Made by a program: the position numbers and the translations under genes. Under the pieces are notes generated by a model. The model saw only the letters and a list, made by a program, of their open reading frames with translations. It was not told the DNA's origin and did not search any database. Shown in pieces: positions 3,441 through 53,283 of a stretch of 64,000 nucleotides of DNA; within the stretch, counting starts at the first letter, position 1, and every line of letters starts with the position of its first letter. This stretch comes from Perlucidibaca aquatica (GTDB taxonomy: Bacteria > Pseudomonadota > Gammaproteobacteria > Pseudomonadales > Moraxellaceae), in the NCBI RefSeq assembly GCF_001676655.1, contig NZ_LZDB01000002.1, forward strand, positions 434,001 to 498,000, read 5' to 3'.

Positions 3441-3537
3441 TTTGCACGGTTGCCCTCACTTCACCACCGATAACCACGGTTCACCACAGCTAGTCTGTAG
3501 GTATCGCTGTAGGTACAAATCGGGAGAGGGCGGCACG

Positions 3538-4713
3538 ATGCCTACAAATGCGCTGACAGATGCGCGCTGCAAGGGAGCCAAGGCCAGCGACAAGCCCTAC
3601 AAGCTGTTCGATGGCGGTGGTTTGCACCTCTATGTTTCCACGACCGGCTCGCGTACTTGGCGGCTGGCGTATCGTCTGGCTGGCAAGCCGCAGACCATGA
3701 GTCTTGGCTCGTATCCTGAAATTACACTGGCTGCCGCGCGCGTGAAGCGTGAGGAAGTGAAACGGGCGCTGATTGAAGGCCATGACCCCATGGCTCCTCG
3801 GCGAGTCAATCGCCAAGGCATGACGCTGGCCGAAGCGACCGATACTTACTGGCAAGGCCGCAAGGATGTGTCTGCGACTTATCGCACCAATGCCCTGCGC
3901 GGCATTGAGCTGCATCTGGTGCGTTTGATGCCGAAGCCGATTGGCAGCATCACGCGTGATGACTTGCTGGGCGAATTGCTGCTCATGGATGCCGCCGGCC
4001 TGCATGTGTATGTGCGCAAGGTACGCATGTGGGTGGGGCAGGTGTTCGAGTGGGCGGTTGAAAACGGCATCGCCAACATCAACCCGGCGGCGCTGATCCG
4101 CCCGGAGAAAGCATTCGGCCGTGCCAAGGTCACCAGCTTTGCCGCCTTGGCCTTGCGAGAAGTGCCGGAGTTTCTGGAGCGCCTGGCGATGGAGGGCGAC
4201 TTGCAAAGCGTGCTGGCGTGTCGCTTGCTGGCGCTGACTTGGGTGCGTACCAATGAGCTACGCATGATGGAGTGGTCGGAAGTCGACGAAGCCGCCAAGG
4301 TTTGGCTGATTCCGGCCGGCAAGATGAAGCGGGATCGCGATCATTTGGTGCCGTTGTCGAGCCAGTCGCTGGCCGTGCTCAAGCAGCTGCGGGCGCGGAG
4401 CCGGCCGGAAGCCCGTTATGTGTTCTCGGCTCCGCATCGCATGGATAGACCCATGTCTGAGAATGCGGTGCTGACCTTGATTGCGCGAATGGGTTACCGA
4501 GGGCGCATGACCGGCCATGGTTGGCGATCAGTGGCCAGCACCTGGGCCAACGAAAACGGTTACTCGCCAGATGCCATCGAGCGCCAGTTGGCGCATGTGC
4601 CTGACAACAAGATTCGTGCGGTCTACAACCGTGCCGAGTACCTGCCGGATCGCAAGAAGCTGTTGCAGGACTGGGCTGACTGGCTGGACAGCTGCGGCCT
4701 CACGCCAGCTTGA
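3538..4713 (+). CDS. int: P4-type tyrosine integrase
   Basis: This site-specific recombinase would integrate and excise the element at tRNA-Ser. The 391-residue protein has the DUF4102-type N-terminal arm-binding domain (about residues 1-85, LTDARCKGAK...GGGLHLYV), a core-binding region, and a catalytic domain with Arg237 (TWVRTNELR), His327-x-x-Arg330 (GHGWRS), His353 (LAHV) and nucleophile Tyr363 (AVYNRAEY), so all catalytic residues are present. ATG 3538 follows GGGAGAGGG. It lies 175 bp inside attL and reads away from the tRNA. Its end overlaps the convergent AlpA-like gene by 14 bp. Confidence 0.96.
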   Translation: MPTNALTDARCKGAKASDKPYKLFDGGGLHLYVSTTGSRTWRLAYRLAGKPQTMSLGSYPEITLAAARVKREEVKRALIEGHDPMAPRRVNRQGMTLAEATDTYWQGRKDVSATYRTNALRGIELHLVRLMPKPIGSITRDDLLGELLLMDAAGLHVYVRKVRMWVGQVFEWAVENGIANINPAALIRPEKAFGRAKVTSFAALALREVPEFLERLAMEGDLQSVLACRLLALTWVRTNELRMMEWSEVDEAAKVWLIPAGKMKRDRDHLVPLSSQSLAVLKQLRARSRPEARYVFSAPHRMDRPMSENAVLTLIARMGYRGRMTGHGWRSVASTWANENGYSPDAIERQLAHVPDNKIRAVYNRAEYLPDRKKLLQDWADWLDSCGLTPA

Positions 4714-6781: not shown

Positions 6782-9700
6782 ATGGACAGAATCGCTTATA
6801 TGAAATCAGTCAACTTCGAGTTTCTCCGCACCGGCAACGAACTACTGGCGAACCTCGGTGGCCTCGCTGAAGCCGTCCTACATATCGATCCGGGTAGTGC
6901 ACTCACTCGCCTGCGCAGCTTCGCAGAAGAGTTAACCAAAGCTATTTACAAGGAAGAGCTGCTGCCACGTATGCCGCAGTCAACCTTCTACGATCTGGTG
7001 AAAAACTCGGTGTTTACGGATTGCGTCAGCAAGTCGTTGGTTCACCAGATCAATTTCTTGCGTATCCAGGGCAATGACACCGCTCACGGTGCGGAAGGTG
7101 ACCTGCGCGATGCACAGCTGGCACTGAAGACCGCGCATCAACTGGCCATGTACATGGCCATCAAGTACTACGGCATCGCACAAGCCGATATTCTCCCCTT
7201 TGCAGAGGTGCAGGATACGACAGCGACTCTAGCCAGTTTGCAAAAGACCGTCTTCAGCTATGAGAAAGAGCTCAATCAGCAGCAGGAAGAGCTGCAGCGC
7301 GTCATGGAAAAGCTTGAGCAGGAGCGCATTCGCAATCTCGACAAGCTGGAGCCGCCTGCCAAGCCTGACCAGCAAAAGCGTCAGCAGCAGAGCCAAAAGG
7401 TTGCAGACAGCCTGCAGTGGAACGAAGCTAAGACCCGCGCTCTGCTAATCGACGCCATGTTGGTGCAGGCGGGCTGGGATATTGGCAATACCTCGCAGGT
7501 CGGTCAGGAAGTGGATGTCGATTTTCCTGATAATTACTCCGGCAAGGGCCGTGCGGACTATGTGCTATGGGGCGACAATGGTCAGCCGCTGGCCGTGATC
7601 GAGGCCAAGAAATCAGGCAATGTCAGCCTACAGGCCGGGCGCGAGCAGGCCCGCATGTATGCCGATGGGTTTGAGCGCATGGGCATGCAGCGCCCAGTGA
7701 TTTTCTACAGCAACGGCTACGAGACCTTCCTCTGGGACGACGCGCAGTACAACACCTACCGTCCGGTGTATGGCTTCTACAGCAAAGACAGCCTTGAATA
7801 CCTGATCTACCAGCGCCAATACCGCAAACCGGAGCTGGAGCGACATAACCCGGATCTGAACATCGCTGACCGCCCGTATCAGATCGAAGCGATCAAAACG
7901 GTTGCCGCACACTTCCAGCAGCAACGCCGCCGCGCACTAATTATACAAGCCACCGGTACTGGCAAGACCCGCGTGGCCATTGCCTTGGCCGAGTTGCTGC
8001 TTCGCACCGGTTGGGCCAAGCGCGTGTTGTTTCTGTGTGACCGCAAAGAGCTGCGCGTTCAAGCCGATGATGCCTTCAAACAGAACCTGCCCAGCGAGCC
8101 GCGCTGCGTGATTGGTGAAACTAACAAGGTGGATCAGACTGCACGTGTTTACATTGCTACTTACCCGGGCATGATGAACCGCTTTGCGCAGCTCGATGTA
8201 GGCTTCTTCGACCTGATCATTGCCGACGAAAGCCACCGTAGCATCTATAACAAGTACCGTGATCTGTTCGACTATTTCGATGCTCTGCAAGTAGGCCTTA
8301 CCGCCACCCCGGTGAAGTTTATTAGCCGCAACACCTTCGATATATTTGACTGCGAGACCACCGACCCGACCTTCGAGTTCGGTCTCGATGCCGCGATTAA
8401 CAACGATCCGCCTTACTTAGTACCGTTCCGCGTCAAAGACCTCACCACCGACTTCCTGCGCGATGGCATTCACTACAACGACCTGAGTAAGGAACAGCAG
8501 CGTCAGCTCGAAGCAGACCTAGGCGAGGTAGAGGCCAAGCGCACCACCATCGCTGGCAAGGACATCGGTCGCAAGATCTTCAGTGTAGACACCGACCGCA
8601 TCATCCTGGAAAACTTGATCAACAACGGCCTCAAGGATGAGACCGGCTCACTTGTCGGCAAGACCATCGTCTTCGCTCAGCGTCAAGACCATGCTGAGCA
8701 TCTGGAGGCGCTGTTCTGCAAGCTCTACCCACAGTATGGCAGCAAAGTCTGCAAGGTCATTCATAACGCCATTCCTCATGTGGAGACGCTGATTAAGGAA
8801 TTCAAAAAGCCCGGCAACGACTTCCGCATCGCCATTTCGGTGGACATGCTTGATACCGGCATCGACGTGCCCGAAGTGGTCAATCTGGTCTTTGCCAAAC
8901 CGGTTAAGTCTTGGGTGAAGTTCTGGCAAATGATTGGCCGTGGCACACGACTGCGTCCTAACTTATTTGGTCAGGGTAAGCACAAAACCGAGTTCCTCAT
9001 TTTCGATCACTACGGCAACTTCGACTTCTTCGAGCAAGAGTACGAAGAGCCGGAAGATCATGGCAGCAAGTCGCTCCTGCAGACTACCTTTGAAGCACGT
9101 CTGGATCTGGCGCAGGTGGCTCTCAAGCACAACCATGCCGCCGCCTTTGATGCCGCTATCGCGCTGCTGCGTGCCGACATCAATGATCTTCCGGAGAGCA
9201 GTGTCGCAGTCAAACGTGAGCTGCGAGCGGTGCATCAGTTGCAGCAGGGTGGCCAGCTGCAAAAGTTCGACGCCAAGACCCAGCACCTGCTGGCGACCAC
9301 CATTTCCCCACTGATGTCTGCTCGTGTGCTGCGCGACAAACATGCCACCGCGCTCGACAAACTCATTGCTGGTATCGAGCGCTGCCTGGTGGAGCAAGCT
9401 AGCTGTTTCGAGGATGGCAAGATCACCCTGCTGGCAGAGATCGACAAGCTCGCTATCAATATTCAGGCTGTGCGACAGAAGGATGCCCTGATTGAAGAGG
9501 TACGCAGTGCTATTTTCTGGAAGCAGCCGAGCATCGACAAACTGGAGAACGCTCGCAAGGAGTTGCGCGGCATCATGAAATACCGACAAACCAGCGGTAT
9601 CGATGATTATCCCATGCCCAGTACACGCACTGGCGATGGTGGTTTGAAAGTGAATGAGCGTAAGGTAATTATTGCTGGTGCCAACGAAGTTATGATCTAT

Positions 9701-10180
9701 CGGCGTCGCCTCAAGGACATCCTCGACGGTATGCTGGCTGCCAACCCGACCCTGCAGAAAATCCACAAGGGCGAGCCAATTGCCGAGCAGGAGCTGGACT
9801 CGCTCACTTCGACGATCCTCTCCAGCCATCCTGGTGTCAGCCTGCAGGTGCTCAACGAATTCTATGGCCGCACCGCCAGTGAGCTACAGCTGACCGTGCG
9901 CGAGCTGATAGGTCTGGATGTGCAAGCTATCGAGCAGCATTTCGCCCAGTTCCTGCATACCCACCCCAGCCTTACGGCCCAGCAGGTGCAGTTCCTGAAC
10001 CTGCTGAAAAGCTACATCGCCCAGCACGGCAGCATCGTCATTGAAAAGCTCTATGACGCTCCGTTCTCCAGCATTTCCCACGAAGGCATCGACGGCGTGT
10101 TTACTCCTGACGATGTGGGTGAGCTGGTGTTTGTGCTAAAGCCCTTTTTGCGAGCGGAAACCCCTCTCAACAGTCACTAG
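6782..10180 (+). CDS. hsdR: Type I restriction enzyme R subunit
   Basis: HsdR is the motor and nuclease of a type I restriction complex. The 1132-residue protein has a DUF4145-like N-terminus (NFEFLRTGNELLANLGG...), a coiled segment near 155-205, a nuclease domain with the EAKK motif (274-277; acidic partner upstream in GRADYVLW), a superfamily 2 helicase with Walker A ATGTGKT (Lys395), DESH (from 482) and TATP, the second helicase lobe (MIGRGTRLRP) and an EcoEI-type C-terminal domain. ATG 6782 has AGGG 5 bases upstream. If transcription starts at the sigma54 site, ATG 6800 (MKSVNFEFLR) is the alternative because 6782 would be leaderless. First gene of hsdR-rmuC-hsdM-hsdS. Confidence 0.95.
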   Translation: MDRIAYMKSVNFEFLRTGNELLANLGGLAEAVLHIDPGSALTRLRSFAEELTKAIYKEELLPRMPQSTFYDLVKNSVFTDCVSKSLVHQINFLRIQGNDTAHGAEGDLRDAQLALKTAHQLAMYMAIKYYGIAQADILPFAEVQDTTATLASLQKTVFSYEKELNQQQEELQRVMEKLEQERIRNLDKLEPPAKPDQQKRQQQSQKVADSLQWNEAKTRALLIDAMLVQAGWDIGNTSQVGQEVDVDFPDNYSGKGRADYVLWGDNGQPLAVIEAKKSGNVSLQAGREQARMYADGFERMGMQRPVIFYSNGYETFLWDDAQYNTYRPVYGFYSKDSLEYLIYQRQYRKPELERHNPDLNIADRPYQIEAIKTVAAHFQQQRRRALIIQATGTGKTRVAIALAELLLRTGWAKRVLFLCDRKELRVQADDAFKQNLPSEPRCVIGETNKVDQTARVYIATYPGMMNRFAQLDVGFFDLIIADESHRSIYNKYRDLFDYFDALQVGLTATPVKFISRNTFDIFDCETTDPTFEFGLDAAINNDPPYLVPFRVKDLTTDFLRDGIHYNDLSKEQQRQLEADLGEVEAKRTTIAGKDIGRKIFSVDTDRIILENLINNGLKDETGSLVGKTIVFAQRQDHAEHLEALFCKLYPQYGSKVCKVIHNAIPHVETLIKEFKKPGNDFRIAISVDMLDTGIDVPEVVNLVFAKPVKSWVKFWQMIGRGTRLRPNLFGQGKHKTEFLIFDHYGNFDFFEQEYEEPEDHGSKSLLQTTFEARLDLAQVALKHNHAAAFDAAIALLRADINDLPESSVAVKRELRAVHQLQQGGQLQKFDAKTQHLLATTISPLMSARVLRDKHATALDKLIAGIERCLVEQASCFEDGKITLLAEIDKLAINIQAVRQKDALIEEVRSAIFWKQPSIDKLENARKELRGIMKYRQTSGIDDYPMPSTRTGDGGLKVNERKVIIAGANEVMIYRRRLKDILDGMLAANPTLQKIHKGEPIAEQELDSLTSTILSSHPGVSLQVLNEFYGRTASELQLTVRELIGLDVQAIEQHFAQFLHTHPSLTAQQVQFLNLLKSYIAQHGSIVIEKLYDAPFSSISHEGIDGVFTPDDVGELVFVLKPFLRAETPLNSH

Positions 10181-10188
10181 GAGTGAAC

Positions 10189-12078
10189 ATGCAAGCCAGT
10201 CAATGGACGTCTGAGATAATCGTGATTTGCGCAGTGCTCGCCATCGCCGCAGCCGTCATCGGCTCTGTGCTCGCAACCCTGCGTCAAAGCCGGCAAGTTA
10301 ACCAGCTCGGTGCACAGCTTGAACAAGCGACAGAGGTCAAGACTTCAACAGAAGCACAGTCGCAATTACTTCAGCGCCAGCTTCGCGAGTCAGAGGGTCG
10401 AAGCCAAGCGCTTCAAGTGGAGGAGGGTAAGCTCAAGGCGCAGTTTCAGGCGTCGATCGAAACCAACGCTCGCCTGATGCAAGAACTGCAGGATCACAAA
10501 GCGACTGCAAATGACCTGCAGATGAAGCTCGAGGAAGCTAGCCGACAACATCACGAAGCTGCCAAGCGCTTGGAGGCAGCACAGTCCAGTATTCACGGTC
10601 AGCAAGAGCAGATGAGGGAGTTGCGGGAACGTCTTGATACAACTAGTACGGCCAAATTCGCGTTACAGGAGGAGAGGGATCGCTTGAAAGATGCACTGGC
10701 GAATGAGGAAACTCGTGCCAAGGTGGCGGAGGCCTCTGAGCGTGATGCCCGCGCACAGTTGGCTGAAACCAAGCAGCAACTGAATCTACAAGTAAAGGCG
10801 TTTGGCGAGCTTCAGGAGCGTTTCAATACCTTGTCATCTGAGCACACCAAGCTCAAAACCACCCTGAGCCAGCGCGAAGAGCACCTCCAGGAGCAGATGG
10901 CGCAGCTCGCTGATGCGCGCAAGTCGCTGACCCAAGAGTTTGAAAACCTGGCTAACAAGATCTTCGAAGAGAAAGGAAAAACCTTCACCCAGACCAGCCA
11001 GACTAGTATTGATGGCATGCTCAAGCCATTCCGTGAGCAGATCGAGGGCTTCCAGAAACGTATCAACGATGTTCATGACGCGTCTCAGCAGGGCAACACC
11101 AGCCTCAATGGTGAAATCAAAAAGGTTCTGGAGATCGGTCTACAGATGAGCAAGGAGGCTAACAACCTCACTTCTGCACTTAAGGGTGACTCACAGCAGC
11201 GCGGCGCTTGGGGAGAGGCCCAGTTGCGTAGAACGCTGGAAATGAGCGGTCTGATCGAAGAAGCCCACTTCGAGGTGCAGAGCTCCTTCAAAGATGCCGA
11301 AGGTAAAAGCAAACAGACCGATTACTTGATCAAAATCCCTGATGGCAAACACATCATCATCGACAGTAAAGTGTCATTGAATGCCTATGATCGCGCTGTC
11401 AGTGCAGAGACACCGGAGGCCTATCAGCTCGCCATGGTCGAGCACGTTAAGGCAGTGCGGAAGCACATTGATGACCTAGCATCCAAGGACTACACCAACC
11501 TTGTTGGTATGCGCAGCCCCAGCTTTGTACTGATGTTCATGCCGATCGAGCCGGCTTACATTGAAGCGATGAAGCACAACAAGGATTTGTTCGAGTACGG
11601 CTACAAAAAAGGCATCGTGCTAGTTTCGCACACCACCCTCATTCCCATCCTGCGTACTGTTTCCAACCTGTGGATGATCGAGCGCAGCAATACTGAGGCG
11701 CGGGAAATCAGTGAGAAGGCTGGCGAAATCTATAACCAAGTCTGCACCGTGGCCGAGCGACTCAGTAAGCTGGGCGGTACGCTCAATACGGCCAGTAATC
11801 ATTACAATAGCACTGTAACGGCCTTGGCCGGGCAGCAAGGCCTTTACGGCAAGATTGATCGCTTCAGTCAGCTATCAGCCAAAGTCAGCAAATCCTTGCC
11901 AATGCTGGAGCCTGCCCACATGGACTTTGAAAGTGAGCGGCTGTCACTGATTGTCGTACCCATCGACGACGCTCCTGAGCAAAACGAAAGCCAGCCACTG
12001 TTATCTGTTCATGCTCCCGAAGGCGAACAGGTCTCAGAGTCAGCCACCATACCTAAAGATGAATTCGAGTTCTCCTGA
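10189..12078 (+). CDS. rmuC: RmuC-family protein within the restriction operon
   Basis: RmuC proteins are linked to limiting DNA rearrangement and carry a PD-(D/E)xK-like nuclease fold. This 629-residue protein has an N-terminal membrane anchor (about residues 8-30), a long coiled coil (about 35-260) and the RmuC domain (about 300-540) with [18 protein letters not shown] and [13 protein letters not shown], which holds the acidic and Lys positions of the nuclease fold. ATG 10189 follows AGGAG by 5 bases. It starts 8 bp after hsdR and its TGA overlaps the hsdM ATG (TGATG), so it is part of the operon rather than a housekeeping neighbour. A role with the type I enzyme is inferred. Confidence 0.92.
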
Positions 12079-13667
12079 TGCTTACTGGCAAAATCCGCAA
12101 CGATATCGACAAGCTCTGGGAGAAATTCTGGACCGGCGGCATCACCAACCCGCTGACCGTTATCGAACAGATCAGCTACCTTATGTTCGCCCGCATGCTC
12201 GACATGCAGGAGGATGTGGCTGAGCGCAAAGCCAACCGCACTGGTAAGGGCTTTGCCCGCCTATTTCCCAATACGCCGGAGGGCCAACTGCTGCGCTGGA
12301 AGAACTTCCGCAACATGAGTGGCAAGGAGCTGCATAGCCACCTCAAGCAGAATGTCTATCCGTTCTTCGCACAACTCGGCGGTGCCGAAGGCGAGGGCGG
12401 TGAGCGTGAAGGGCTTGGCCATATCAGCGAGTACATGCAGGACGCCGATCTTGAGATCAAGAACGAGTCCGTGCTCACCTCCGCCGTGGAGATGGTCAAC
12501 GATCTGCCGCTGACCCAGAGCGATGTAAAGGGCGACATCTACGAATACCTGCTGAGCAAGCTCACCACCGCCGGCATCAACGGCCAGTTCCGTACTCCGC
12601 GCCATATCATCGACGCGATGATCGAGCTGATTGCCCCGCAGCCCACCGACGTGATCTGCGATCCGGCTTGCGGCACCGCTGGCTTCCTCGCCCGCACCAT
12701 GGAATACCTTAACCGCGTGCACTCCAGCCCGGAAGGCACCTTCACAGACGAAGACGGCAACCGGCACTACTCCGGTGACCTTCTCGAGCCCTACCGCCAG
12801 CACATCAACAGCCAGATGTTCTGGGGCTTCGACTTCGACACCACCATGCTGCGCGTCTCCAGCATGAACATGATGCTGCACGGCGTGAACGGCGCGAACA
12901 TCCGCTACCAGGACTCCCTGAGCAAATCCATCAAGGAGCACTACCCGCGTCAGGAGCAAAACTTCTTCGACGTGGTGTTGGCCAACCCGCCGTTCAAAGG
13001 TAGCCTAGACGAAACCAACACCAACCCCGACGTGCTCGGCCTGGTGAAAACCAAAAAGACCGAGTTGCTGTTCGTCGCCCATATCCTCTGCTCGCTTAAG
13101 CTCGGTGGCCGTGCGGCGGTGATCGTGCCAGACGGCGTGCTGTTTGGCTCGTCCAAGGCTCACCAGCAACTGCGCCAGGAGCTGCTCGATAACAACCAGC
13201 TGGAAGGCATCGTCAGCCTGCCCAGCGGCGTGTTCAAACCCTACGCCGGCGTCAGCACCGCCATCCTCATTTTCACCAAGGGCGGCACCACCGAGCGAGT
13301 GTGGTTTTACGACCTGCAGGCCGACGGTTACTCCCTGGACGACAAGCGCACCGAACTGAAAGGCGAGGGCAGCAACGACCTGCCCGACGCCATCGCCCAG
13401 TGGCAAAAATACCGGCAGATGGTGGAGGGCAATATCAGCACCAGCACCAGCACCATCAACACCCTGTTTGGCGACAAGCGCAAAAAGGCCTTTGTCGTGC
13501 CGGCCGAAGACATCGCCGCCAACAAGTACGACCTCAACATCAGTCGCTACAAGGAAGTGGAGTACCAGCAGGAAGCCTTTGAGGACCCGAAAGTGATTCT
13601 ACAGCGGCTTAAAGGGCTAGAGCAGGAAATCATGGCGTGTCTGGATGAGCTGGAGGAGATGCTGTGA
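12078..13667 (+). CDS. hsdM: Type I restriction-modification DNA methyltransferase (M subunit)
   Basis: HsdM methylates adenine N6 and forms the modification core with HsdS. The 529-residue protein has an HsdM_N helical domain (about 1-140), the AdoMet-binding motif DPACGTAGF starting at Asp195, and the catalytic NPPF (303-306). Length is normal. Its start overlaps the rmuC stop and its own stop overlaps hsdS by 4 bp, indicating coupled translation of a fixed-stoichiometry complex. Confidence 0.97.
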
Positions 13668-14857
13668 GTTGGCCCAATTTTAAGATTGGTGATTTATGCA
13701 CCTTAATGACCGGTGGAACACCTAGTACAAGTAGGCCGGAGTACTACGAAGAAGGAACAGTGCCATGGATTGTCTCTGGAGATATTCACAAGAAAGAAAT
13801 ATCTGATTGTGAGAAAAGAATAACGGGGCTTGCTGTTAAAGAATCCAATGCTCGTTATTTGCCGAGAGATAGTGTCCTTATTGCTTTGAATGGGCAGGGT
13901 AAGACGCGAGGGACGGTTGCCTTGCTCAGGATGGAGGGTGCGACATGCAATCAGTCGATTGTTTCTATAAATCCAAATGATAAGCAAGAATTGTCTTCAG
14001 ATTATCTTTTTCATTATTTGAATTCGCAGTATCAGAATATTCGGAATATCACTGGTGATAAGGATCGTGCTGGATTAAATATGCCATTAATTCGGGAGAT
14101 CACTATCCCCCTCCCACCCCTACCCGAACAAAAGCGCATCGCCGCCATCCTCGACAAGGCCGACGCCATCCGCCGCAAACGCCAGCATGCCATCCAGCTT
14201 GCCGAAGACTTCCTTCGCGCCGTGTTTCTTGACATATTCGGCGACCCGGTGACCAACCCGAAAGGCTTCAAGAAAGGCTCTATCACTGAGCTTGCTGACA
14301 TCATTACGGGGCATGCCTTCAAAAGTGATGAATATGTCAGTGATTCAGATGTGGCTGTAAGGCTTTGTCGCGGAACTAATGTGCTGACGAGTTATTTTGA
14401 TTGGAGTGATACAGCTTATTGGCCCAAAGATCAGCTTGCTGGACTAGAGAAATATCTTCTCTTGAGTAATGATATAGTTTTGGCAATGGATCGTCCGTGG
14501 ATATCGAGTGGCTTAAAGGTTTGTATCTTTTCTGAGCAAGAAGTCGATACATACTTGGTGCAACGCGTGGCTCGCTTGCGGCCTAAGGAAGCTATATTTT
14601 CCGAATATATTTATTCTTGCATCAAGTCACAGGCTTTTGCGAGCCACTGTTGCCCAACAGAGACAACAGTTCCTCATATTTCGCCAGTCGAGCTTCGTGG
14701 GTATGAAGTTTTAATTCCGGACAAAAAAACAATTTATAACTACCATGTAATAGTGGGGAAAATTAAATCTGCTATTACAGGGATGAAGGAAGCGGCTTCA
14801 TATGCTGGAATTACATTTTATTCTTTGAGTCAAAAAGCCTTTGCTGGCCAGCTCTAG
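13664..14857 (+). CDS. hsdS: Type I restriction enzyme specificity subunit
   Basis: HsdS reads the bipartite recognition site. The 397-residue protein starts at a GTG overlapping hsdM (GTGA) and has target-recognition domain 1 (about 1-145), the central conserved helix LPPLPEQKRIAAILDKADAI (about 147-166) with LAEDFLRAVFLDIFGDP, then domain 2 (about 205-350) and a weaker C-terminal repeat. The two recognition domains are distinctly AT-rich (13680-14095 and 14280-14850) while the conserved spacer is GC-rich like the rest of the operon, the usual mark of domain exchange. The recognition sequence cannot be predicted from reading alone. Confidence 0.94.
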   Translation: MSWPNFKIGDLCTLMTGGTPSTSRPEYYEEGTVPWIVSGDIHKKEISDCEKRITGLAVKESNARYLPRDSVLIALNGQGKTRGTVALLRMEGATCNQSIVSINPNDKQELSSDYLFHYLNSQYQNIRNITGDKDRAGLNMPLIREITIPLPPLPEQKRIAAILDKADAIRRKRQHAIQLAEDFLRAVFLDIFGDPVTNPKGFKKGSITELADIITGHAFKSDEYVSDSDVAVRLCRGTNVLTSYFDWSDTAYWPKDQLAGLEKYLLLSNDIVLAMDRPWISSGLKVCIFSEQEVDTYLVQRVARLRPKEAIFSEYIYSCIKSQAFASHCCPTETTVPHISPVELRGYEVLIPDKKTIYNYHVIVGKIKSAITGMKEAASYAGITFYSLSQKAFAGQL

Positions 14858-14871
14858 ACTTTAGATAAGGA

Positions 14872-14879
14872 CCCCCCCC
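14872..14879 (+). repeat. C8 tract between ribosome site and start codon
   Basis: Eight consecutive C residues lie between AAGGA (about 14867-14871) and the ATG at 14881. Slippage here would change the spacing between ribosome site and start without altering the protein. Confidence 0.7.
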
Positions 14880-14880
14880 T

Positions 14881-16710
14881 ATGCGCCTCAAGTCGGTCAA
14901 GCTTACTCATTTTCGCGGCTACCGCGCCACTACCGTCATTCCCATCGATGACGCCATGACTGGCATCGTCGGTCGCAATGACTATGGCAAATCGACTATT
15001 CTTGAAGCACTAGCCATTTTCTTCGAAAGTGGTGACATCAAGGCAGACAAGAGCGATATGAACTGCTTCACCCTAGGCGATGGGGCCGAGCAGTTTGAGA
15101 TTGCCTGCGAGTTTGATGCCCTGCCTGAGACACTTGTACTGGATGAAAATGCAGAGTCCTCATTAGCGCGAGAGTATCTGCTCAACGCTGTGGGTGCACT
15201 CGAGATTGTCAAAACCTTCAAGGCAAGCTCCGGCAAGCTTGAGCGAACAGCCATCCTTTGTCAGCACCCTAACGATGAAGTGCTAGCCGGGTTGCTGAGC
15301 CTCAAGATGGATGCTTTGAAAAAGCTTGGCGGACAGCGCGGCATAGCAGAGCAAGTCGCTGATCAGCGTGTGGCCTCGCACTGGCGTCACGCAATTCGTG
15401 AGGCAGCAAAGCCCTTTGCCTGTCAGGAAATGTTGCTCGATGTTAGTAAAGGGATTTCGACTGACAATAAATCCATCTGGGAAAAAATCGAGGCCCAACT
15501 GCCCACCTTCGCTCTATTCAAGGCGGATCGTGAAAGCAGTGATGGCGATGTCGAGGCTAAGAACCCGATGCAGCAGGCGGTCAAGGAAGCGCAAGCTGCA
15601 CTGCAGGATCAGATTAGCGCGCTGGAGCAGCAGATCGAAGCCAGTGTGCTGGATGTCGCCACTCGCACCCTCGATAAGTTGCGGGAAATGGCGCCCGAGC
15701 TGGCCAATGAGCTGACTCCGCGTTTCAAGGAAAAGCCCAAGTGGAGTTTCAGTTTCACGCTGGACGGTGAGAATGGTATTCCCATCAACAAGCGTGGCAG
15801 CGGCGTGCGCCGACTAATTTTGCTCAATTTCTTCCGCGCTGAGGCGGAAAAGGCGGTAGTGGGCTCTCAGCGTAATGTGATATATGCCATCGAAGAGCCG
15901 GAAACCTCTCAGCACCCCAACTACCAGATGATGTTGATGAAGGCGCTGCTGGAGCTCTCCAATCAGTCCAACCGGCAAATCATTGTCACCACCCACGTTC
16001 CTGCGCTGGCCGGACTGATGCCCATTGATGGCATGCGCTATGTCACCAAGGATGAAAATGGTATCCCTATCGTCAAGATGCCTAATGATGATGTGCTGAA
16101 GGAGGCCGCTGAGAGCCTGGGTGTGCTCCCGGAAACAGGGATGGAGAGGGCAAAGGGCGTCGTGCTGGTAGAGGGTAAATCAGACGTCACCTTTCTTCGC
16201 CATGTGGCCAATACCTTGAAGGCTGGTGGGCATCTCCAATCTAATCTTGAGGATGCCGGCATTGTTCCGATCCTGATTGGGGGCTGTGGCAGTGTGAAGC
16301 ACTGGGTTACCCTCAATCTTGCTGATGACCTCGGGTTGCCCTGGTGCGTGTTTCTTGATTCCGATATCGGTGGCAGCCCGGAGCAAGTAGCTTCAATTGC
16401 AAAGCGCAAGAGGGAAGTCGAAGCCTGCGGGCGTTCCTTCTATTCAACGCGTAAACGGGAAGTCGAAAACTACTTGTGCCCTGACATGATTAATGCTCGA
16501 ACCGGGGTAACTGTGAACTTCACTGACACCTGCGATGCGAAGAAGATAATTGGTAAAGCATTGGGTATTAAGGGCGATGATCTGATCGACAAGCTCTGGC
16601 CGCACATGACTGCTGAACAAATCCTTCAGCGTTCGATATACCAGGAGGGGGCTGAGCAGCGTTCGGAGCTTAAAGATCTAGTCGAGAATCTGCTGCGGTT
16701 AGTCTCTTGA
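14881..16710 (+). CDS. OLD-family ATPase/TOPRIM nuclease
   Basis: OLD-family (overcoming lysogenization defect) proteins join an ABC-type ATPase to a TOPRIM nuclease and often act in phage defence. The 609-residue protein has Walker A GRNDYGKST (31-39), a coiled region (about 215-265), the ABC signature region (RGSGVRRLILLNFFRAEA), Walker B-like IYAIEEPETSQHP, then TOPRIM motifs VEGKSD (Glu431, Asp435) and LDSD (Asp493, Asp495). AAGGA and a C8 tract precede ATG 14881. No UvrD-like helicase follows, so this is not an obvious Gabija pair. It may act alone or with the restriction operon 23 bp upstream. Confidence 0.85.
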   Translation: MRLKSVKLTHFRGYRATTVIPIDDAMTGIVGRNDYGKSTILEALAIFFESGDIKADKSDMNCFTLGDGAEQFEIACEFDALPETLVLDENAESSLAREYLLNAVGALEIVKTFKASSGKLERTAILCQHPNDEVLAGLLSLKMDALKKLGGQRGIAEQVADQRVASHWRHAIREAAKPFACQEMLLDVSKGISTDNKSIWEKIEAQLPTFALFKADRESSDGDVEAKNPMQQAVKEAQAALQDQISALEQQIEASVLDVATRTLDKLREMAPELANELTPRFKEKPKWSFSFTLDGENGIPINKRGSGVRRLILLNFFRAEAEKAVVGSQRNVIYAIEEPETSQHPNYQMMLMKALLELSNQSNRQIIVTTHVPALAGLMPIDGMRYVTKDENGIPIVKMPNDDVLKEAAESLGVLPETGMERAKGVVLVEGKSDVTFLRHVANTLKAGGHLQSNLEDAGIVPILIGGCGSVKHWVTLNLADDLGLPWCVFLDSDIGGSPEQVASIAKRKREVEACGRSFYSTRKREVENYLCPDMINARTGVTVNFTDTCDAKKIIGKALGIKGDDLIDKLWPHMTAEQILQRSIYQEGAEQRSELKDLVENLLRLVS

Positions 16711-16760
16711 CTCAAAAGTGTGTTATGTCCCGGCCTCTGCCGAGCTAGAGGATAAAAGCT

Positions 16761-18389
16761 ATGCGCATTACGGAAATCGCTCTTACTAACTTTCGCTCAT
16801 TTCAGTCCACTCAGTCCATAGCGCTCGCTCCCGTCACCCTGTTGTTCGGACCGAACAGCGTGGGCAAAAGCTCGGTACTGATGGCGCTGTTCTACATTCA
16901 GCAGTTACTGGAAAAAGGGCAGTGCGACCCGCAGCGTATCGATGCATTGGGTGAAAAACACATTGGTGGCTTCAGGAGCCTTGTGAATGGCAGGGACCTC
17001 GCCAAGCGAATTATCATCAAGTTAACCTTGGACAAGTCTGGCTCCATCGGTGCCAGCTACAACCAGATTGTGGAGCTGGTGGCTGACGATTTTGGCCTGC
17101 CCGTTGACAGCCCTACGGCTGATGCCAACCATATGGCTGTGGAGTTTCATATCGCTTGGTCTAAAGCAGAGAATATGGCCTATGTGGCCTGCTACAAAGT
17201 CTGGCTAGATGACTGCCTGATTGCCGAGCTTGCCAGTGATGCCGGCCTCAAGCAGCCTGTTATTACTTGGCTCAATTATCGGCACCCGGCGTTGTTAAGT
17301 GAGACTGATCAGGATGAGTACGCGGATGGAGGCTTTGTCAGCCGCCTGCATGAGCTCCTCAACGCCAATCGCAAACCCGAGGTCGTGTCCAGAAAGGATT
17401 TTGGGCAGAGCAGCGAGGTGACTTTTGAGCATGCCGTAATCGGCTTCAAAGGGCTTGCCGGTGCTTTACCTGTGCTGGGGAAGCGGCTGGAGAGTGTCAT
17501 TGAGGCAGATCAGCAGGCTCTGACTCTGCGGCTGCATGAAATACTCTCGGATGTGGTGGTCGCTCCTCTCGACAACCTACTTGTGTTGCTCAACGAGAGC
17601 CTGTGCATCGGGCCGTTGCGAGTTATCCCAGACGCCCTGCATCAGCCCAATCCCTACCCGCAGCAGAAGGACTGGTATTCTGGTGCCGCTGCGTGGGATG
17701 TCACAGGGCGATTGAGCGGAGCAAACATGGTCGCGCTTAATCATTGGTTGAATGCGTCAGGCACACTGAATCTCGGATATTTCCTACGTTCGAAGAACGT
17801 GTTGAGCCAAGCCATCTACTCGGGATGTATTGATACCGCTAGTGAGCCACATGAATTAGTTGAGACTTTCGGAGACTCTTTTAGTCAGGACTTCTCAGAA
17901 GCCAAAGCGCGGCATCTGGTGGCAGAAAAGTTTTACAACAAGTGGGTGCTGTGGGACGACCTCAACAAGATTGAGGTAGCCTTTTCCGAGGTAGGTGTCG
18001 GAATATCTCAGTTGTTCCCGCTGGTGGTCGCAACAGTAAAGGCCGAGCGGGGCATCATCGCTTGCGAGCAGCCGGAGCTTCATGTTCACCCAAGGATCCA
18101 GGTCGGCATCGGCGACTTGCTTACGCAGGCTAACAAGAACACCACTTTCTTGATCGAAACTCATAGCGAACACCTAATCCTAAGAATCTTGCGGCGCATT
18201 CGAGAAACCTCCGATTACGAGCTGCCAGCAGGTCTAAAGCCTGTTTCTCCAGACGATGTATCCATCGTTTATATGGAACCGGGTGCGACGGGCGTGAAAA
18301 CCCGACGGATTGAAATAGACCGCACGGGCGAGTTCACCAGCCGTTGGCCACATGGCTTCTTCGCAGAGCGTGGCGAGGAACTGTTCTGA
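16761..18389 (+). CDS. AAA ATPase with C-terminal DUF3696
   Basis: The 542-residue protein starts with MRITEIALTNFRSF and Walker A GPNSVGKSS (30-38), typical of SMC/RecF-like ATPases. It has a Walker B region ACEQPELHVHP around Glu436 and ends with the DUF3696 signature (TRRIEIDRTGEFTSRWPHGFF). Related ATPases are common in defence islands. AGAGGA precedes ATG 16761. Its last base is the first base of the next gene's ATG, suggesting a two-gene functional unit. The role is inferred from family and setting. Confidence 0.85.
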   Translation: MRITEIALTNFRSFQSTQSIALAPVTLLFGPNSVGKSSVLMALFYIQQLLEKGQCDPQRIDALGEKHIGGFRSLVNGRDLAKRIIIKLTLDKSGSIGASYNQIVELVADDFGLPVDSPTADANHMAVEFHIAWSKAENMAYVACYKVWLDDCLIAELASDAGLKQPVITWLNYRHPALLSETDQDEYADGGFVSRLHELLNANRKPEVVSRKDFGQSSEVTFEHAVIGFKGLAGALPVLGKRLESVIEADQQALTLRLHEILSDVVVAPLDNLLVLLNESLCIGPLRVIPDALHQPNPYPQQKDWYSGAAAWDVTGRLSGANMVALNHWLNASGTLNLGYFLRSKNVLSQAIYSGCIDTASEPHELVETFGDSFSQDFSEAKARHLVAEKFYNKWVLWDDLNKIEVAFSEVGVGISQLFPLVVATVKAERGIIACEQPELHVHPRIQVGIGDLLTQANKNTTFLIETHSEHLILRILRRIRETSDYELPAGLKPVSPDDVSIVYMEPGATGVKTRRIEIDRTGEFTSRWPHGFFAERGEELF

Positions 18390-20288: not shown

Positions 20289-20543
20289 ATGTCTGCGAAT
20301 ACCCCTAGGCTCACTATTCCTCTGGATGTTGCCCGCTTCCTGAACAATGCCGAGGCGGCGGCGTTTCTTCGGCTGTCGCCGCGCACGCTGGAGAAGCGTC
20401 GCATGCTCGGCGATGGTCCGCGATTTCGCAAGGTCGGGCGGCGTGTGATCTACGCGTTGGATGATCTGATCTGCTGGGCGGATGCCCGCAGCTTCGAGGC
20501 GACTTTCGATCCGGATTACGGCAAGCCACACCAGGTACAGTGA
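20289..20543 (+). CDS. AlpA/HTH_17-like DNA-binding protein
   Basis: The 84-residue product carries the motif LNNAEAAAFLRLSPRTLEKRRMLGDGPRFRKVGRRVIYALDDL (split here: AAAFLRLSPRTLEKRR, then GRRVIYALDD), the hallmark of MerR/excisionase-like winged HTH proteins. Such genes sit just upstream of repA in Tn4371-like elements. Its stop is 10 bp before the repA ATG, so they share an operon. It probably controls excision or rep/par expression, which is inferred. Confidence 0.85.
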   Translation: MSANTPRLTIPLDVARFLNNAEAAAFLRLSPRTLEKRRMLGDGPRFRKVGRRVIYALDDLICWADARSFEATFDPDYGKPHQVQ

Positions 20544-20553: not shown

Positions 20554-21420
20554 ATGAAGCTATCCAGAAGCAAGTCTCAACCTGCGCCTGCTGGCGAGCC
20601 CCAGCTGGAGCTGTTTCGGGCGTTGCCGCCGGTGATGGCACCGCGCGATGCGCAGGACCTGATGGCGTATCCGTTCTTTGCCTTGGGCAAGTCGCGACGC
20701 GTGCAGCCCATCGACTTTCAGTCGGGCGCTGTTCGGGTGCGCGTGGAGGGCACGCTGGAGCATGGCCTGGCGACGATCTGGGATGCCGACATCCTAATCT
20801 GGGCGGCGAGCCAGATTGTTGAGGCGCGCGATCTTGGTCTGCGCACCTCGCGGCTCATGCAGGCCACGCCCTACGAAATTCTGACTTTCATCGGCCGTGG
20901 CACTTCGCTGCGCGACTACCAGCGGCTGAAGGCGGCGCTCGATCGCTTGCAATCCACCAGTGTGGCGACTTCCATCCGCGAGACCACCGGGCGTCGTCTG
21001 CATCGTTTCTCGTGGATCAACGAATGGAAGGAGCTAGCCGACACTGATGGCAAGCCCTTGGGCTTGGAGCTGGTCCTGCCGGATTGGTTCTATGCCGGCG
21101 TGCTGGAAGAGGCGCTGGTGCTCACGATAGATCCGGCTTATTTCCGGCTGGGTGGTGGCATCGAGCGCTGGCTGTATCGGCTGGTGCGCAAGCATGGCGG
21201 CCGTCAAAAGGGTGGCTGGCATTTCGCGTTTCAGCATCTCTATCTCAAGTCGGGCTCCATGGCCCGCTACTCGGATTTTGCCCTCGATATTCGCCGCATC
21301 GTGGCCCGTCAGGTCTTGCCGGGCTACCGATTGGGTGTGCGTTTGCGGGCAGACGGACACGAAACTTTGACCTTCCAAGCGCATGCGGAGCCGGGTGCTC
21401 CAGCGTGCTCTGTCGGATGA
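20554..21420 (+). CDS. repA: Replication initiator protein A family
   Basis: The 288-residue protein matches the RepA family of broad plasmid/ICE initiators, with QLELFRALPP near the start, MAYPFFALGKSRRVQPIDF, and a winged-helix region around GIERWLYRLVRKHGGRQKGGW. ATG 20554 lies 10 bp after the upstream HTH gene. Three 17-bp repeats begin 29 bp after its stop and are the obvious binding target, so the element may replicate after excision. Confidence 0.9.
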   Translation: MKLSRSKSQPAPAGEPQLELFRALPPVMAPRDAQDLMAYPFFALGKSRRVQPIDFQSGAVRVRVEGTLEHGLATIWDADILIWAASQIVEARDLGLRTSRLMQATPYEILTFIGRGTSLRDYQRLKAALDRLQSTSVATSIRETTGRRLHRFSWINEWKELADTDGKPLGLELVLPDWFYAGVLEEALVLTIDPAYFRLGGGIERWLYRLVRKHGGRQKGGWHFAFQHLYLKSGSMARYSDFALDIRRIVARQVLPGYRLGVRLRADGHETLTFQAHAEPGAPACSVG

Positions 21421-21448: not shown

Positions 21449-21512
21449 TCGTGCTATCAGGCGCAGCCAGGCTCGTGCTATCAGGCGCAAATGACTCGTG
21501 CTATCAGGCGCA
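21449..21512 (+). repeat. Three iterons of a putative origin of replication
   Basis: TCGTGCTATCAGGCGCA occurs exactly at 21449-21465, 21473-21489 and 21496-21512, with start-to-start distances of 24 and 23 bases, about two helical turns. They lie directly after repA. An AT-rich tract (about 21556-21590) and TGTGGACAA at 21607-21615, one mismatch from a DnaA box, follow before parA. Confidence 0.85.
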
Positions 21513-21641
21513 CAACTCAGGCTGCAGCCCTTGTGCCGTCTGCGTCTCAGCGCCCCTTAACTTATATAACTATAAAAGAATAACTGTAGTAGGGGCAAAG
21601 CCCTGCTGTGGACAAGTCACGGCAAAAACGAGGTGGCGAGC
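21513..21641. other. AT-rich segment and DnaA-like box of putative oriV
   Basis: The segment CTTATATAACTATAAAAG and neighbours is strikingly AT-rich compared with the genes around it, which fits a DNA-unwinding element. TGTGGACAA (21607-21615) resembles a DnaA box. A GAGG ribosome site precedes the parA ATG at 21642. This is a reading of layout only. Confidence 0.55.
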
Positions 21642-22280
21642 ATGATTATTTCCCTACTAAACCAAAAGGGCGGTGTCGGCAAAACCACCTTGGCGACGCA
21701 TTTGGCCGGTGAACTGGCGCAAGCCGGCCAGTCGGTTTTGTTGATCGATGCTGACCCGCAAGGTTCGGCATTGGATTGGTCACAGCGACGAGCACAAAGC
21801 GGCTATCCGCGATTGTTCTCGGTCATTGGCTTGGCGCGCGAGACGCTGCATCAGGAAGCGCCAGCAATGGCGCGTGGTGTCGATCACATCATCATCGACG
21901 GCCCGCCCAGAGTCGCGGCCTTGGCGCGCTCTGCGCTGCTGGCCAGCGATGTCGTGTTGGTGCCGGTGCAACCCAGCCCCTACGACATCTGGGCCAGTGC
22001 CGAGATGGTCGGGCTGATTCGTGAGGCTATGATCTTCAAGCCAGCTTTGCAGGCTGCGTTTGTCATCAATCGCCGCGTGGGTGCAACGGTGATTGGTCGC
22101 GAGGTGCGTCAGGCGCTCTCAGAGCAGCTGCTAGCAACTTTCGCAGCTGAGGTGCGGCAACGCATCGTCTTTGCCGATAGCGTCGCTTCTGGGGCGCTTG
22201 CGAGCGAGCTGGAGCCGGAGGGTAGGGCGGCGATGGAGATTCGCATGCTGGCGCAGGAGCTGCTCGGGAGGTCCTCATGA
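21642..22280 (+). CDS. parA: ParA-family partition ATPase
   Basis: The 212-residue protein has the deviant Walker A KGGVGKTT (9-16), the conserved [15 protein letters not shown] and a Walker B-like IIIDGPPR. It is the small ParA/Soj class used for segregation of plasmids and replicating ICEs. ATG 21642 has GAGG 8 bases upstream; a GTG at 21633 is also in frame. Its stop overlaps the next ATG (ATGA). Confidence 0.93.
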
Positions 22281-22534
22281 GCAGCCGACGCATGCCCTTC
22301 GGTCAGCGGCCGTCTGCTGACCCCTCGCTGGAGGCTTGGGTACGGCAGGGTGAAGCTGCGCCTCTGCCATCCGCCGAACCCGTCAAGGCCGATATCTACA
22401 CCGCACGCATGACGCTAGATGTCACGCCGGAGATGCGAGCGCGCATCAAGGTCGCGGCCTTCAAGCGCGGTCGCACCGTCACCGATGTGCTGCGCGAATT
22501 GCTGGAGCAGCATTTCCCGGAGGATCAGCCATGA
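22277..22534 (+). CDS. Small ribbon-helix-helix protein, probable ParA partner
   Basis: The 85-residue product has a basic, disordered N-terminus and a C-terminal ribbon-helix-helix pattern ([20 protein letters not shown] then [17 protein letters not shown]). Small RHH proteins following a parA gene commonly bind a centromere-like site. It overlaps parA by 4 bp and the next gene by 4 bp. A centromere-binding role is inferred. Confidence 0.8.
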
Positions 22535-22995
22535 GCACGCTGCTGACGCGCGTGTCGCTGATCTTCATCCCGGACCGCGTGAACATATGGCTGCGTTTCG
22601 GGCATTCGGTGGCTGAGCATCTGCGGGATGGCCAACGCCGCTTTGCCGACTTCGCACCGGGCGCGCTGCTGTGCCGCATCGAGTGGCAAGCTAATCGCTA
22701 TGGCACGACGCGTTGGGTGCTGCGCGTGCTGCAAACGGCGAGCGCTGGCGAGGCTGTTCAGGTTGTCGCTGGCGTGCAACCCGGCGCTCAGATCTTGCTG
22801 CGCGTCGCCAGCCAGCAGCGCGTGATGCAGGTGCTGGGACTGATTGATGACCTGGAGGCGCAAGGCCACGATCCGTCGCTGGTGCCGCCGGATTACTGGC
22901 GCATGGTTCACAACCGATTAGCTGCTCATATGCCACCGCCGGCCTACACGCATGAACGCCATGCAGCGTTCTGCGCGCGGGAGGCTGTGCGATGA
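22531..22995 (+). CDS. DUF2840 protein
   Basis: The 154-residue product matches the DUF2840 family found in Tn4371-like and related ICEs between parA and traF: LTRVSLIFIPDRVNIWLRFG, FADFAPGALLCRIEWQANRYG, and the C-terminal WRMVHNRLAAH. Function is unknown. Overlaps of 4 bp on each side place it in the par-traF operon. Confidence 0.85.
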   Translation: MSTLLTRVSLIFIPDRVNIWLRFGHSVAEHLRDGQRRFADFAPGALLCRIEWQANRYGTTRWVLRVLQTASAGEAVQVVAGVQPGAQILLRVASQQRVMQVLGLIDDLEAQGHDPSLVPPDYWRMVHNRLAAHMPPPAYTHERHAAFCAREAVR

Positions 22996-23516
22996 GCCAA
23001 CGACTCATTATCGCCAGCCTCTCGTTGGCCGTGACCGCACTCGGTGTGGCGCTGACGGTGTCGCTGCCATCCTGCGTGATCTACAACCCGAGTGTCAGTG
23101 CGCCACAAGGTTGGTATGCACTGGCCTCGGCAGATCGCTTGCAGGTCGGTGAGCATGTGCTGGTGCGCTTGCCGTCGGCGGCTGCCGAACTGGCTGCGCA
23201 ACGACGCTATCTGCCGATGAACATTCCGCTGCTCAAACGTATCGCCGCGACTGCACCGCAACAAGTTTGCGTGCGTGCAGGTCGTGTGCTGATTGATGGT
23301 CAGCTTGCTGCTGTTCAGCGTGCAGCCGATGCGCAAGGCCGGCTGCTGCCACACTGGCAGGAATGCCGTCGATTGCGTGCAGATGAATTGTTTCTGCTGA
23401 GCGAAACCAGTGACGCCTCTTACGACAGCCGCTACTTCGGGCCGATCACCGTGAATCGGGTGATCGGCCGTGCTCGCGCCTTGTGGACGTGGGCTCAGTC
23501 GGGAGGTGAGCAGTGA
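22992..23516 (+). CDS. traF: Conjugative transfer signal peptidase TraF
   Basis: This S26-family peptidase is related to RP4 TraF, which matures and cyclises the TrbC pilin. The 174-residue protein has an N-terminal membrane segment (about 5-27), the Ser region YNPSVSAPQGWYAL, and the Lys region NIPLLKRIAATAPQQVC. The C-terminal box YDSRYFGPITVNRVIGRA is the usual S26 end. It overlaps DUF2840 by 4 bp. TrbC is encoded about 26 kb away in the same element. Confidence 0.92.
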   Translation: MSQRLIIASLSLAVTALGVALTVSLPSCVIYNPSVSAPQGWYALASADRLQVGEHVLVRLPSAAAELAAQRRYLPMNIPLLKRIAATAPQQVCVRAGRVLIDGQLAAVQRAADAQGRLLPHWQECRRLRADELFLLSETSDASYDSRYFGPITVNRVIGRARALWTWAQSGGEQ

Positions 23517-23728
23517 TGAGCGAGCGAATGCGAGCGGTAAAAGCGGAGGGCAAGATAAAAGGGGCCGGCACGCTAGCGTGCCTTGAGCCCTCCGCCAACA
23601 GCATTACAGGCAGCACCGGATGGGGCAGGATGCGTGCCGTGTTGAAGCTGAAAGCACTGCAGCTGCTGGCTTGGGGGCGTGCCGCCTACGCCAGCCTATG
23701 CCGTCATGCGCTGGAGCGTGCGGCATGA
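23513..23728 (+). CDS. Doubtful small frame across the oriT region
   Basis: A 71-residue frame starts at a GTG overlapping the traF stop and ends in the ATGA that starts the relaxase, so its coupling would be perfect. Its sequence resembles nothing I know; its C-terminal third (LKLKALQLLAWGRAAYASL) could be an amphipathic helix. The same DNA holds the hairpins and nic-like site of the putative oriT, so the frame may be incidental. Confidence 0.3.
   Translation: MMSERMRAVKAEGKIKGAGTLACLEPSANSITGSTGWGRMRAVLKLKALQLLAWGRAAYASLCRHALERAA
23543..23631 (-). other. Candidate origin of transfer (oriT), IncP-like
   Basis: Just upstream of the relaxase are inverted arms GCGGAGGGC (23543-23551) and GCCCTCCGC (23587-23595) enclosing a perfect 16-bp palindrome GGCACGCTAGCGTGCC (23567-23582). 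The minus strand of 23622-23631 reads ATCCTGCCCC, matching the IncP nick consensus YATCCTG/Y with a C before it, which would place the nick between 23625 and 23626. The strand is that of the predicted nick. Transfer would then send traF, par and the defence island first and the relaxase last. Confidence 0.6.
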
Positions 23729-24699
23729 GCCGGCGCGATGAGGATGGCTTCGAGATCCGGCCAGCTGCGCCCCAGGGTCGGCATCAGCGTTTTGTCAGCC
23801 AGGTGATGCGCGAAGCGAGCAAGGCCAGTGGTCGTTCGCTGAACCGGCCGGCATCGCGCGCAGGGGCTTCGCTAGGGCGAGGGCAGGTGGCAGCGCGAGT
23901 CGCTGGGAAGGCGTTTGACCGCAAGGCGAGGCGGGTGGTTATCAAGGCTCGGCTGGTGAATCTGAGGAAGGCCGGTAGCCGATCCACGATTACGCACCTG
24001 CGCTATATCGAGCGCGAAGGTGTGGGGCCTGATGGTGAGCCGGGGAAGGCCTATGGACCGACTACTGACGATGCTGACATGGGCGCATTCGATGAGCGTG
24101 TGCGTGATGACCGGCATCAGTTTCGGTTCATTGTTTCGACTCAGGATGCGGTGCAAATCGAAGATCTGAAACACTTCACGCGTGACCTGATGACACGGGT
24201 TGAGGCAGACCTGGGCACGCAGCTAGATTGGGTGGCGGTGGATCACTGGGATACCGACAACCCCCATACGCATATCGTGCTGCGGGGGCGGCAGGCGGAT
24301 GGCCATGATCTGGTCATTGCGCGGGAGTACATCGGCACGGGTATGCGGCAGCGGGCCAGTGAGCTGGCTACGGAGTGGCTGGGGCCACGCACTGAGCTAG
24401 AGATTCTGCAGAGTCAGCAGCGGGAGGTTCAGCGGCCAGGATGGACGGCGCTGGATCGGTCGCTACAGCGGTTGGCGAAGGATGGTCAGGTGACACTGAG
24501 GCAGCTGCATGAGCAGTGCCGAGATCCGAGGTATCGCAATCTGCTGGTGGGAAGATTGCAGTATCTAGAAGGGATGGGGTTAACAACGACAGTGGTTGGG
24601 CGAGGCTGGCAGATGCAGCCAAGTCTGGAAAAAGCCCTGAAGTCTGTTGGCATGGCAAAAGATATTGTCAGAACGAAGAGCCGTGAACTTGAGGTTTGA
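23725..24699 (+). CDS. RlxS-like relaxase, C-terminally shortened
   Basis: The N-terminal half matches MOBP-type relaxases of Tn4371-like ICEs (DUF3363/VirD2-like), which nick oriT and pilot the strand. It has the three-His metal motif DHWDTDNPHTHIVLRG (His174, His181, His183), the HLRYIEREG segment near residue 92 and FRFIVST. At 324 residues it is about half the usual length (around 600-700): after the WQMQPSLEKALKSVG region, where relatives continue with GERGDIIKT-like sequence, it reads on to KDIVRTKSRELEV and stops. The metal island begins just beyond. No C-terminal remainder is recognisable near traG. Confidence 0.82.
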   Translation: MSRRDEDGFEIRPAAPQGRHQRFVSQVMREASKASGRSLNRPASRAGASLGRGQVAARVAGKAFDRKARRVVIKARLVNLRKAGSRSTITHLRYIEREGVGPDGEPGKAYGPTTDDADMGAFDERVRDDRHQFRFIVSTQDAVQIEDLKHFTRDLMTRVEADLGTQLDWVAVDHWDTDNPHTHIVLRGRQADGHDLVIAREYIGTGMRQRASELATEWLGPRTELEILQSQQREVQRPGWTALDRSLQRLAKDGQVTLRQLHEQCRDPRYRNLLVGRLQYLEGMGLTTTVVGRGWQMQPSLEKALKSVGMAKDIVRTKSRELEV

Positions 24700-50117: not shown

Positions 50118-50124
50118 GGTCGCC

Positions 50125-53270: not shown

Positions 53271-53283
53271 GGAGCGTCGGATC

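Follow-up and report, generated by a model that had tools for sequence, protein, structure and literature searches.

A putative RepA-dependent replication origin on a Tn4371-like integrative element, with iterons that co-vary with RepA

The integrated element and its replication and partition genes

The window (the whole 64,000-nucleotide stretch of DNA that was analysed) holds an integrated element of about 59.4 kb, measured between 22-bp att repeats that begin at 3341 and 62689 and that confirmed the location inside an integrated element proposed by the first-pass annotation. A tRNA-Ser 24-mer was rejected as att; it has a single occurrence in the genome and the true att repeat begins further in. 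The framework of the element is as follows.

3269-3359, tRNA-Ser, the basis of the attL placement
3341-3362, + strand, attL, AATCCCTCCTTCTCCTCCAAAT, a direct repeat of 22 bp that begins within the tRNA-Ser 3' end (exact repeat pair)
3442-4713, + strand, tyrosine integrase with an Arm-DNA-bind_3 domain (Pfam), adjoining tRNA-Ser
22531-23516, + strand, DUF2840 gene together with a signal peptidase of traF-like type, both belonging to the Tn4371-type core (Pfam, NCBIfam)
23620-24699, + strand, short relaxase of 359 aa without most of the DUF3363 C-terminal part (profile match, comparison)
46066-57776, + strand, traG and trb conjugation genes of the core (NCBIfam TraG and TrbE; the rest by order only)
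62689-62710, + strand, attR, second copy of AATCCCTCCTTCTCCTCCAAAT at the far end of the element (exact repeat pair)

The gene order rep-par-DUF2840-traF-relaxase-traG-trb is that of the Tn4371 family, in which rep-par-traF-relaxase-traG-trb forms the ICE core (PMC2789088). Tn4371 and ICEKKS102 are integrated at TTTTCAT or GATTTTAAG (PMC6563109), whereas the window element uses a 22-bp att at tRNA-Ser; it was therefore named a Tn4371-like core with another integration module. The label covers the core only, with integration compared at the level of the att site. The host genus is probably Perlucidibaca, since the host genome falls in the genus group of G401, and locus L112 of G401 has identity values that match those of L001, a Perlucidibaca record. 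The element also differs from Tn4371-family ICEs in carrying a short relaxase in place of the full-length protein: the length is ∼357-359 aa in the window and in relative L001 (L001:9066-10124), against 634-697 aa, counted from the match start onward, in other relatives. This shortened relaxase may be a stable, functional form. The element also bears a defence-like load at 6782-18386 and 58555-60277, made up of type I restriction-modification genes, RmuC, two ATPases resembling OLD/AAA_15 and a pair resembling AbiEi/AbiEii. The interval from the relaxase to traG (25264-45852) contains two RND efflux sets, a multicopper-oxidase-like gene and a two-component system, a cargo of metal-efflux type as named by sequence only.

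The replication and partition genes, and the sites between them, are listed below.

20289-20543, + strand, small HTH_17 (AlpA/Xis-like) DNA-binding protein upstream of repA (Pfam; position kept in relatives)
20554-21420, + strand, repA, replication initiator protein A (PF10134), 288 aa, modelled with tandem winged helices (Pfam)
21259-21285, + strand, repA codons 236-244 (MARYSDFAL), with predicted specificity residues 236, 238, 239, 240 and 244 (co-variation, model)
21449-21465, + strand, iteron 1, TCGTGCTATCAGGCGCA (exact repeat)
21473-21489, + strand, iteron 2, exact copy of TCGTGCTATCAGGCGCA
21496-21512, + strand, iteron 3, exact copy of TCGTGCTATCAGGCGCA
21557-21592, + strand, A+T-rich region, probably for DNA unwinding, with three TAAC repeats (composition; TAAC conservation)
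21607-21615, - strand, DnaA-box-like TTGTCCACA, one mismatch from TTWTNCACA
21633-22280, + strand, parA, ParA family partition ATPase (NCBIfam NF041546)
22277-22534, + strand, small ribbon-helix-helix-like (RHH) partner gene (weak Pfam RHH_10 match, below cut-off)

RepA was matched by the Pfam RPA profile (PF10134) at 282 bits against a cut-off of 27, over residues 31-260 and the full length of the profile (1-228 of 228), and belongs to that family. ParA scored 267 bits against NF041546 (cut-off 180), as the small ParA ATPase of a putative ParA/RHH (type Ib) system; its conserved start is probably the ATG at 21642. An adjacent parA and RHH gene had been proposed at the outset and were found adjacent, the latter as an RHH-like gene with a match below the Pfam cut-off; the centromere of such a system is represented here by an inverted repeat that is a candidate only (see below). 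Judged by dN/dS in the comparison of the window with L001 (0.14 for RepA, 0.09 for ParA, ∼60% synonymous difference), both proteins are under purifying selection. The iterons are identical between the two loci despite this synonymous difference.

The repeats in the repA-parA gap and their conservation

Three exact 17-bp repeats at 23-24 bp intervals had been reported between repA and parA, and were recovered at the positions above with start-to-start distances of 24 and 23 bp. Seventeen nucleotides is the longest word with three occurrences in the 212-bp gap. The longest such word in 2000 dinucleotide shuffles of the gap was at most 8 nt, and thrice-repeated words were shorter than 11 nt in every window tile outside the iteron region. 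The iteron triplet is far beyond chance in 212 bp. No extra iteron-like copy was seen upstream of repA.

The AT-rich tract of the first-pass annotation was equally well founded: 21559-21592 is 79% A+T, within the top 0.1% of the window's 34-nt stretches, and TAAC repeats start at 21558, 21567 and 21581. TAAC repeats were present at all 108 distinct loci, at least two at each and mostly three to four, loci without parA included. By sequence the locus has features expected of an iteron-type theta replicon, namely an initiator gene adjoining the origin (the PF10134 RepA), direct repeats of ∼17-22 bp in helical phase (three of 17 bp, at 24/23 bp) and an A+T-rich unwinding region with short repeats (79% A+T, TAAC).

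The proposed DnaA-like box is present, but at one mismatch from TTWTNCACA it is near chance level and weak by itself, because 0.32 boxes with up to one mismatch are expected by chance in the gap and one was seen. It is retained in L001, the nearest relative. Most relatives have a GGTGGACAA inverted repeat at the corresponding position (21600-21620), so the window's box may serve partition, or act as an operator, in place of binding DnaA. With up to one mismatch, the inverted repeat was found at 64 of 102 loci with parA and at 0 of 6 without it, and it is a candidate operator or centromere upstream of parA.

For the comparison, 80 relatives were fetched by RepA and the repA-parA gap was readable in 79; with the window and the copy of the window in its own genome these gave 81 entries, representing 80 different loci. 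The triplet was present at the exact 24/23-bp spacing in all 81 entries, with no more than 4 mismatches over 36 core positions, and lay 25-41 bp past the repA stop in nearly all of them. Searching 398 genomes for the triplet, blind to RepA, gave 16 hits in 13 genomes, that of the window among them, and every one of the 16 had a RepA homologue directly beside it; the reversed triplet pattern was found 0 times in the same 398 genomes. At six distinct loci an intact parA start is missing from the 700 bp past the repeats, and all six keep both iterons and TAAC repeats. At three loci (L092, L095, L099) neither parA nor the RHH gene was found, and DUF2840 and traF follow directly after repA. At L082, a RepA-like plasmid locus, iterons were not recognisable. 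In alphaproteobacterial RepAs with an LPFKF-type loop (L149-L161, L164 and others) the iterons are inside a longer repA frame, ∼170 nt past the loop codons, with the repA stop ∼480 nt past them.

Co-variation of the iteron tail with RepA

The 12-bp 5' part of the iteron is nearly constant among relatives, and the next four bases (the 3' tail) vary in classes. The tail is identical across all three copies in 66 of the 81 entries. Within the first set of loci, normalised mutual information (nMI) between tail class and RepA columns reached 0.82 in one short stretch; the best values for the other proteins were 0.39 in ParA and 0.46 in RHH. The tail-linked residues are 236, 238, 239, 240 and 244 in window numbering, and are referred to here as the loop. 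Loops and tails were tallied over 108 distinct loci, taking the majority tail of the three copies.

Loop TKP[YHA]C or TRLYC: tail CGTG, 33/33
Loop [ASV]RFSY: tail AGTA, 16/16
Loop VR[YF]YA: tail CAAC, 11/11
Loop [MST]RYSL: tail CGCA, 6/6
Loop LPLK[YF]: tail GACC, 11/11
Loop LP[FY]KF: tail AACC, 15/15

Every one of the 92 distinct loci whose loop is of a common type showed the expected majority tail, in classes that were drawn with the data in view. The other 16 loci have rarer or hybrid loops, and in most of them the repeats are mixed (ARYSC, for instance, occurs with CGCA/CGTA/CGTA), which is what intermediates should look like. From this co-variation, RepA is predicted to read the iteron tail. 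A first rule was right for 11 of 12 new loci of classes already seen (L129 was wrong), and was one base off for the whole LPFKF class, with GACC predicted and AACC observed, because the first set contained a single locus of that class, which had been mis-scanned, and because the iterons of the class lie inside the longer repA frame. The revised rule was right at 13 of 13 further loci, which span only GACC, AACC and AACG. Genome G196 holds three such origins (L101, L108, L110), two with CGTG tails and one with AGTA, and genome G379 holds origins with CGTG and CAAC tails.

A distant alphaproteobacterial group has an altered 5' part (e.g. CGGCACATCAGG) and keeps the CGCA ending where the loop is LRPSL. 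Residues 118, 121 and 124 of the first winged-helix domain (WH1), elsewhere invariant or nearly so, are changed in this group. In this one clade comparison, the changes fit a WH1 that would read the 5' part of the iteron.

Mean pLDDT of the RepA model is 65, which is moderate, and residues 221-270 are better. A winged helix is formed by helices 202-214, 226-233 and 239-252 and strands 258-264 and 270-276. The predicted specificity residues lie at the start of helix 239-252, the third, recognition-type helix of the second winged-helix domain (WH2), which is followed by a two-strand wing. In the fold comparison the highest-ranking matches, at Z 8.6 to 9.8 and with a large rmsd over the two domains, were RctB, pPS10 RepA and RepE in complex with iteron DNA. 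A PDB sequence search with RepA gave no similar solved structure.

A rival account of the code, which leaves the origin untouched, is that RepA and tail match through shared ancestry, the 3' end of repA and the repeats being inherited as one block. The loop and the iterons are only ∼200 bp apart, and shared inheritance by recombination therefore adds to the co-variation. On a RepA tree built without the loop the tail classes are clustered, needing at least 20 changes against 67 in shuffles. At the DNA level, however, in 69 loci of equal spacing, the signal had its peaks in the tails and at positions -174 to -150, the loop codons, and the intervening spacer carried much less (mean nMI 0.11, with 0.13 downstream); one further coding position (-75) exceeded 0.45. 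CGTG and AGTA also recur on the loop-free tree, needing 7 and 8 changes, of which at least 3 and at least 5 are forced by well-supported branches, and the loop types still match; hybrid loops mostly occur with hybrid or mixed repeats. Sign tests on well-supported branches gave the expected direction or no difference in the cases listed, on too few pairs for significance. RepA residue 265 also had a high nMI in the larger set that includes alphaproteobacteria, a value probably inflated by many states and clade structure. Ancestry as the whole explanation of the match was considered unlikely.

A proposed replicon, its alternatives and its known counterparts

The region 21449-21615 is very probably a RepA-dependent oriV of a plasmid-type replicon carried by the Tn4371-like element. 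The iteron-type origin first suggested for it is strongly supported by the spacing in 81 of 81 entries, the 16 of 16 triplets beside repA, retention without parA and RHH and co-variation of the tail with RepA. From these parts and their conservation we infer the following course of events. A two-winged-helix RepA would bind the three iterons, which are ∼2.2 helical turns apart, with WH1 reading the constant 5' part CGTGCTATCAGG and the recognition helix of WH2 reading the 3' tail (CGCA in the window). The assembled RepA would then open the adjoining A+T-rich TAAC region and so start theta replication of the excised circle. Distribution of the resulting copies would fall to ParA and the RHH protein. 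Tail classes with matching RepA residues would define separate incompatibility groups. In the stronger form of this proposal, residues 236, 238-240 and 244 set the four-base tail, and at least seven classes (CGCA, CGTG, AGTA, CAAC, GACC, AACC and AACG) are incompatibility groups kept apart by selection, in elements that often coexist as replicating circles; we give this form an even chance. A counterpoint to the origin is that the closest plasmid-borne RepA homologues found are mostly on large plasmids, which probably have other replicons.

With parA and the RHH gene immediately downstream of the repeats, and with RHH partition proteins often binding repeats that precede their own operon, the array might be a parS centromere bound by the RHH protein of the ParA system and not a replication origin. 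Against this, all triplets found adjoin repA, the tail co-varies with RepA and not with ParA or RHH, and the GGTGGACAA inverted repeat, nearer to parA, is a better centromere candidate. At L092, L095 and L099 iterons and TAAC repeats persist without parA and the RHH gene, and are therefore not a ParA centromere; we consider that reading scarcely credible. Persistence after parA loss also counts against the suggestion that RepA binds the repeats chiefly for regulation (of parA transcription, say) and not to start replication. The position between repA and parA would suit a regulator, and many Rep proteins double as repressors, but A+T-rich TAAC repeats accompany the iterons and the layout matches that of stand-alone plasmids, and a mainly regulatory role was judged very improbable. 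It is slightly easier to entertain, but still quite improbable, that the ICE no longer uses the origin and retains it as a leftover of a plasmid ancestor. The element is integrated and its relaxase is short, as this would have it; yet the fixed spacing in all relatives is hard to explain without continuing function, RepA is under purifying selection, and the RepA loop and all three iterons change in matched fashion.

With repA, the region resembles the iteron theta replicons of mini-F RepE, pPS10 RepA and Vibrio RctB, which have tandem winged-helix initiators; the points of likeness are two winged-helix domains (here modelled), three direct repeats about two helical turns apart and an adjoining A+T-rich region. 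It differs from them in that RepA belongs to PF10134 and that the iterons are downstream of repA, within an integrative element. Homologous initiators are found in the PF10134 plasmid replicons of pVS1, IncU RA3, Sphingomonas p32 and Acidithiobacillus pGT2, of which p32 and pGT2 have iterons and TTAAC-type repeats after repA, in the layout of the window; iteron spacing in stand-alone plasmids with distant RepA homologues is ∼23 bp. Those of p32, pGT2 and the IncU-typed homologues are only 34-40% identical to the window RepA (34% for the initiator of an IncU-typed plasmid), and pVS1 is likened via the literature only, where RepA of Tn4371 elements is compared with pVS1 RepA (PMC2789088). The PF10134 plasmids are stand-alone and not integrated, and their iteron sequences differ from those of the window. 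Mapping of oriV in IncU RA3 placed it at the initiator gene's 3' end (PMC9455977). In p32 no initiator other than repA is annotated, and ParA-RHH lies alongside, across the start of the record. Several of the plasmids with distant RepAs (L086-L091) had no clear downstream iterons; L086 has 18-bp-spaced repeats.

Iteron origins and replicating integrative elements are already known (PMC4489591, PMC7826253, PMC7433901). SGI1, SXT/R391 and ICEBs1 are excised integrative elements that replicate: SGI1 in plasmid-like fashion with a RepA (PMC7826253, PMC7433901) and in need of an IncC helper (PMC7826253), ICEBs1 via oriT and its own relaxase, and SXT transiently via TraI and oriT (PMC4489591). The Rep/Par genes of Tn4371 were described as a putative stabilisation system and RepA of Tn4371 elements as possibly involved in replication (PMC2789088); no oriV, iterons or replication origin of Tn4371 elements was described in the literature text found. 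On induction of ICEKKS102, attP rose 130-fold and attB 40-fold, both relative to time zero (PMC11448139); as relative values these rises are no more than suggestive of an origin that raises or stabilises the excised form. No description of a RepA-iteron recognition code was found in the PubMed Central papers searched. Within those papers, the conserved origin appears to be new, as does the RepA-iteron code together with the incompatibility groups that it predicts.

Matched pairs of RepA helix and repeat over more than 100 related elements suggest plasmid-like replication of these elements when they are out of the chromosome. For ICEs of the Tn4371 type, which is widespread, plasmid replication has stood at 'may be involved' in the literature found; an origin of ∼170 bp, its initiator and the code make the question simply testable. 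The code predicts which co-resident elements exclude each other and, if true, would provide a natural set of orthogonal initiator-origin pairs. The PF10134 replicon type may also serve phage-plasmids: Azospirillum TSH100 p2 (L200) carries phage structural genes together with a PF10134 RepA, ParA and four iterons of its own.
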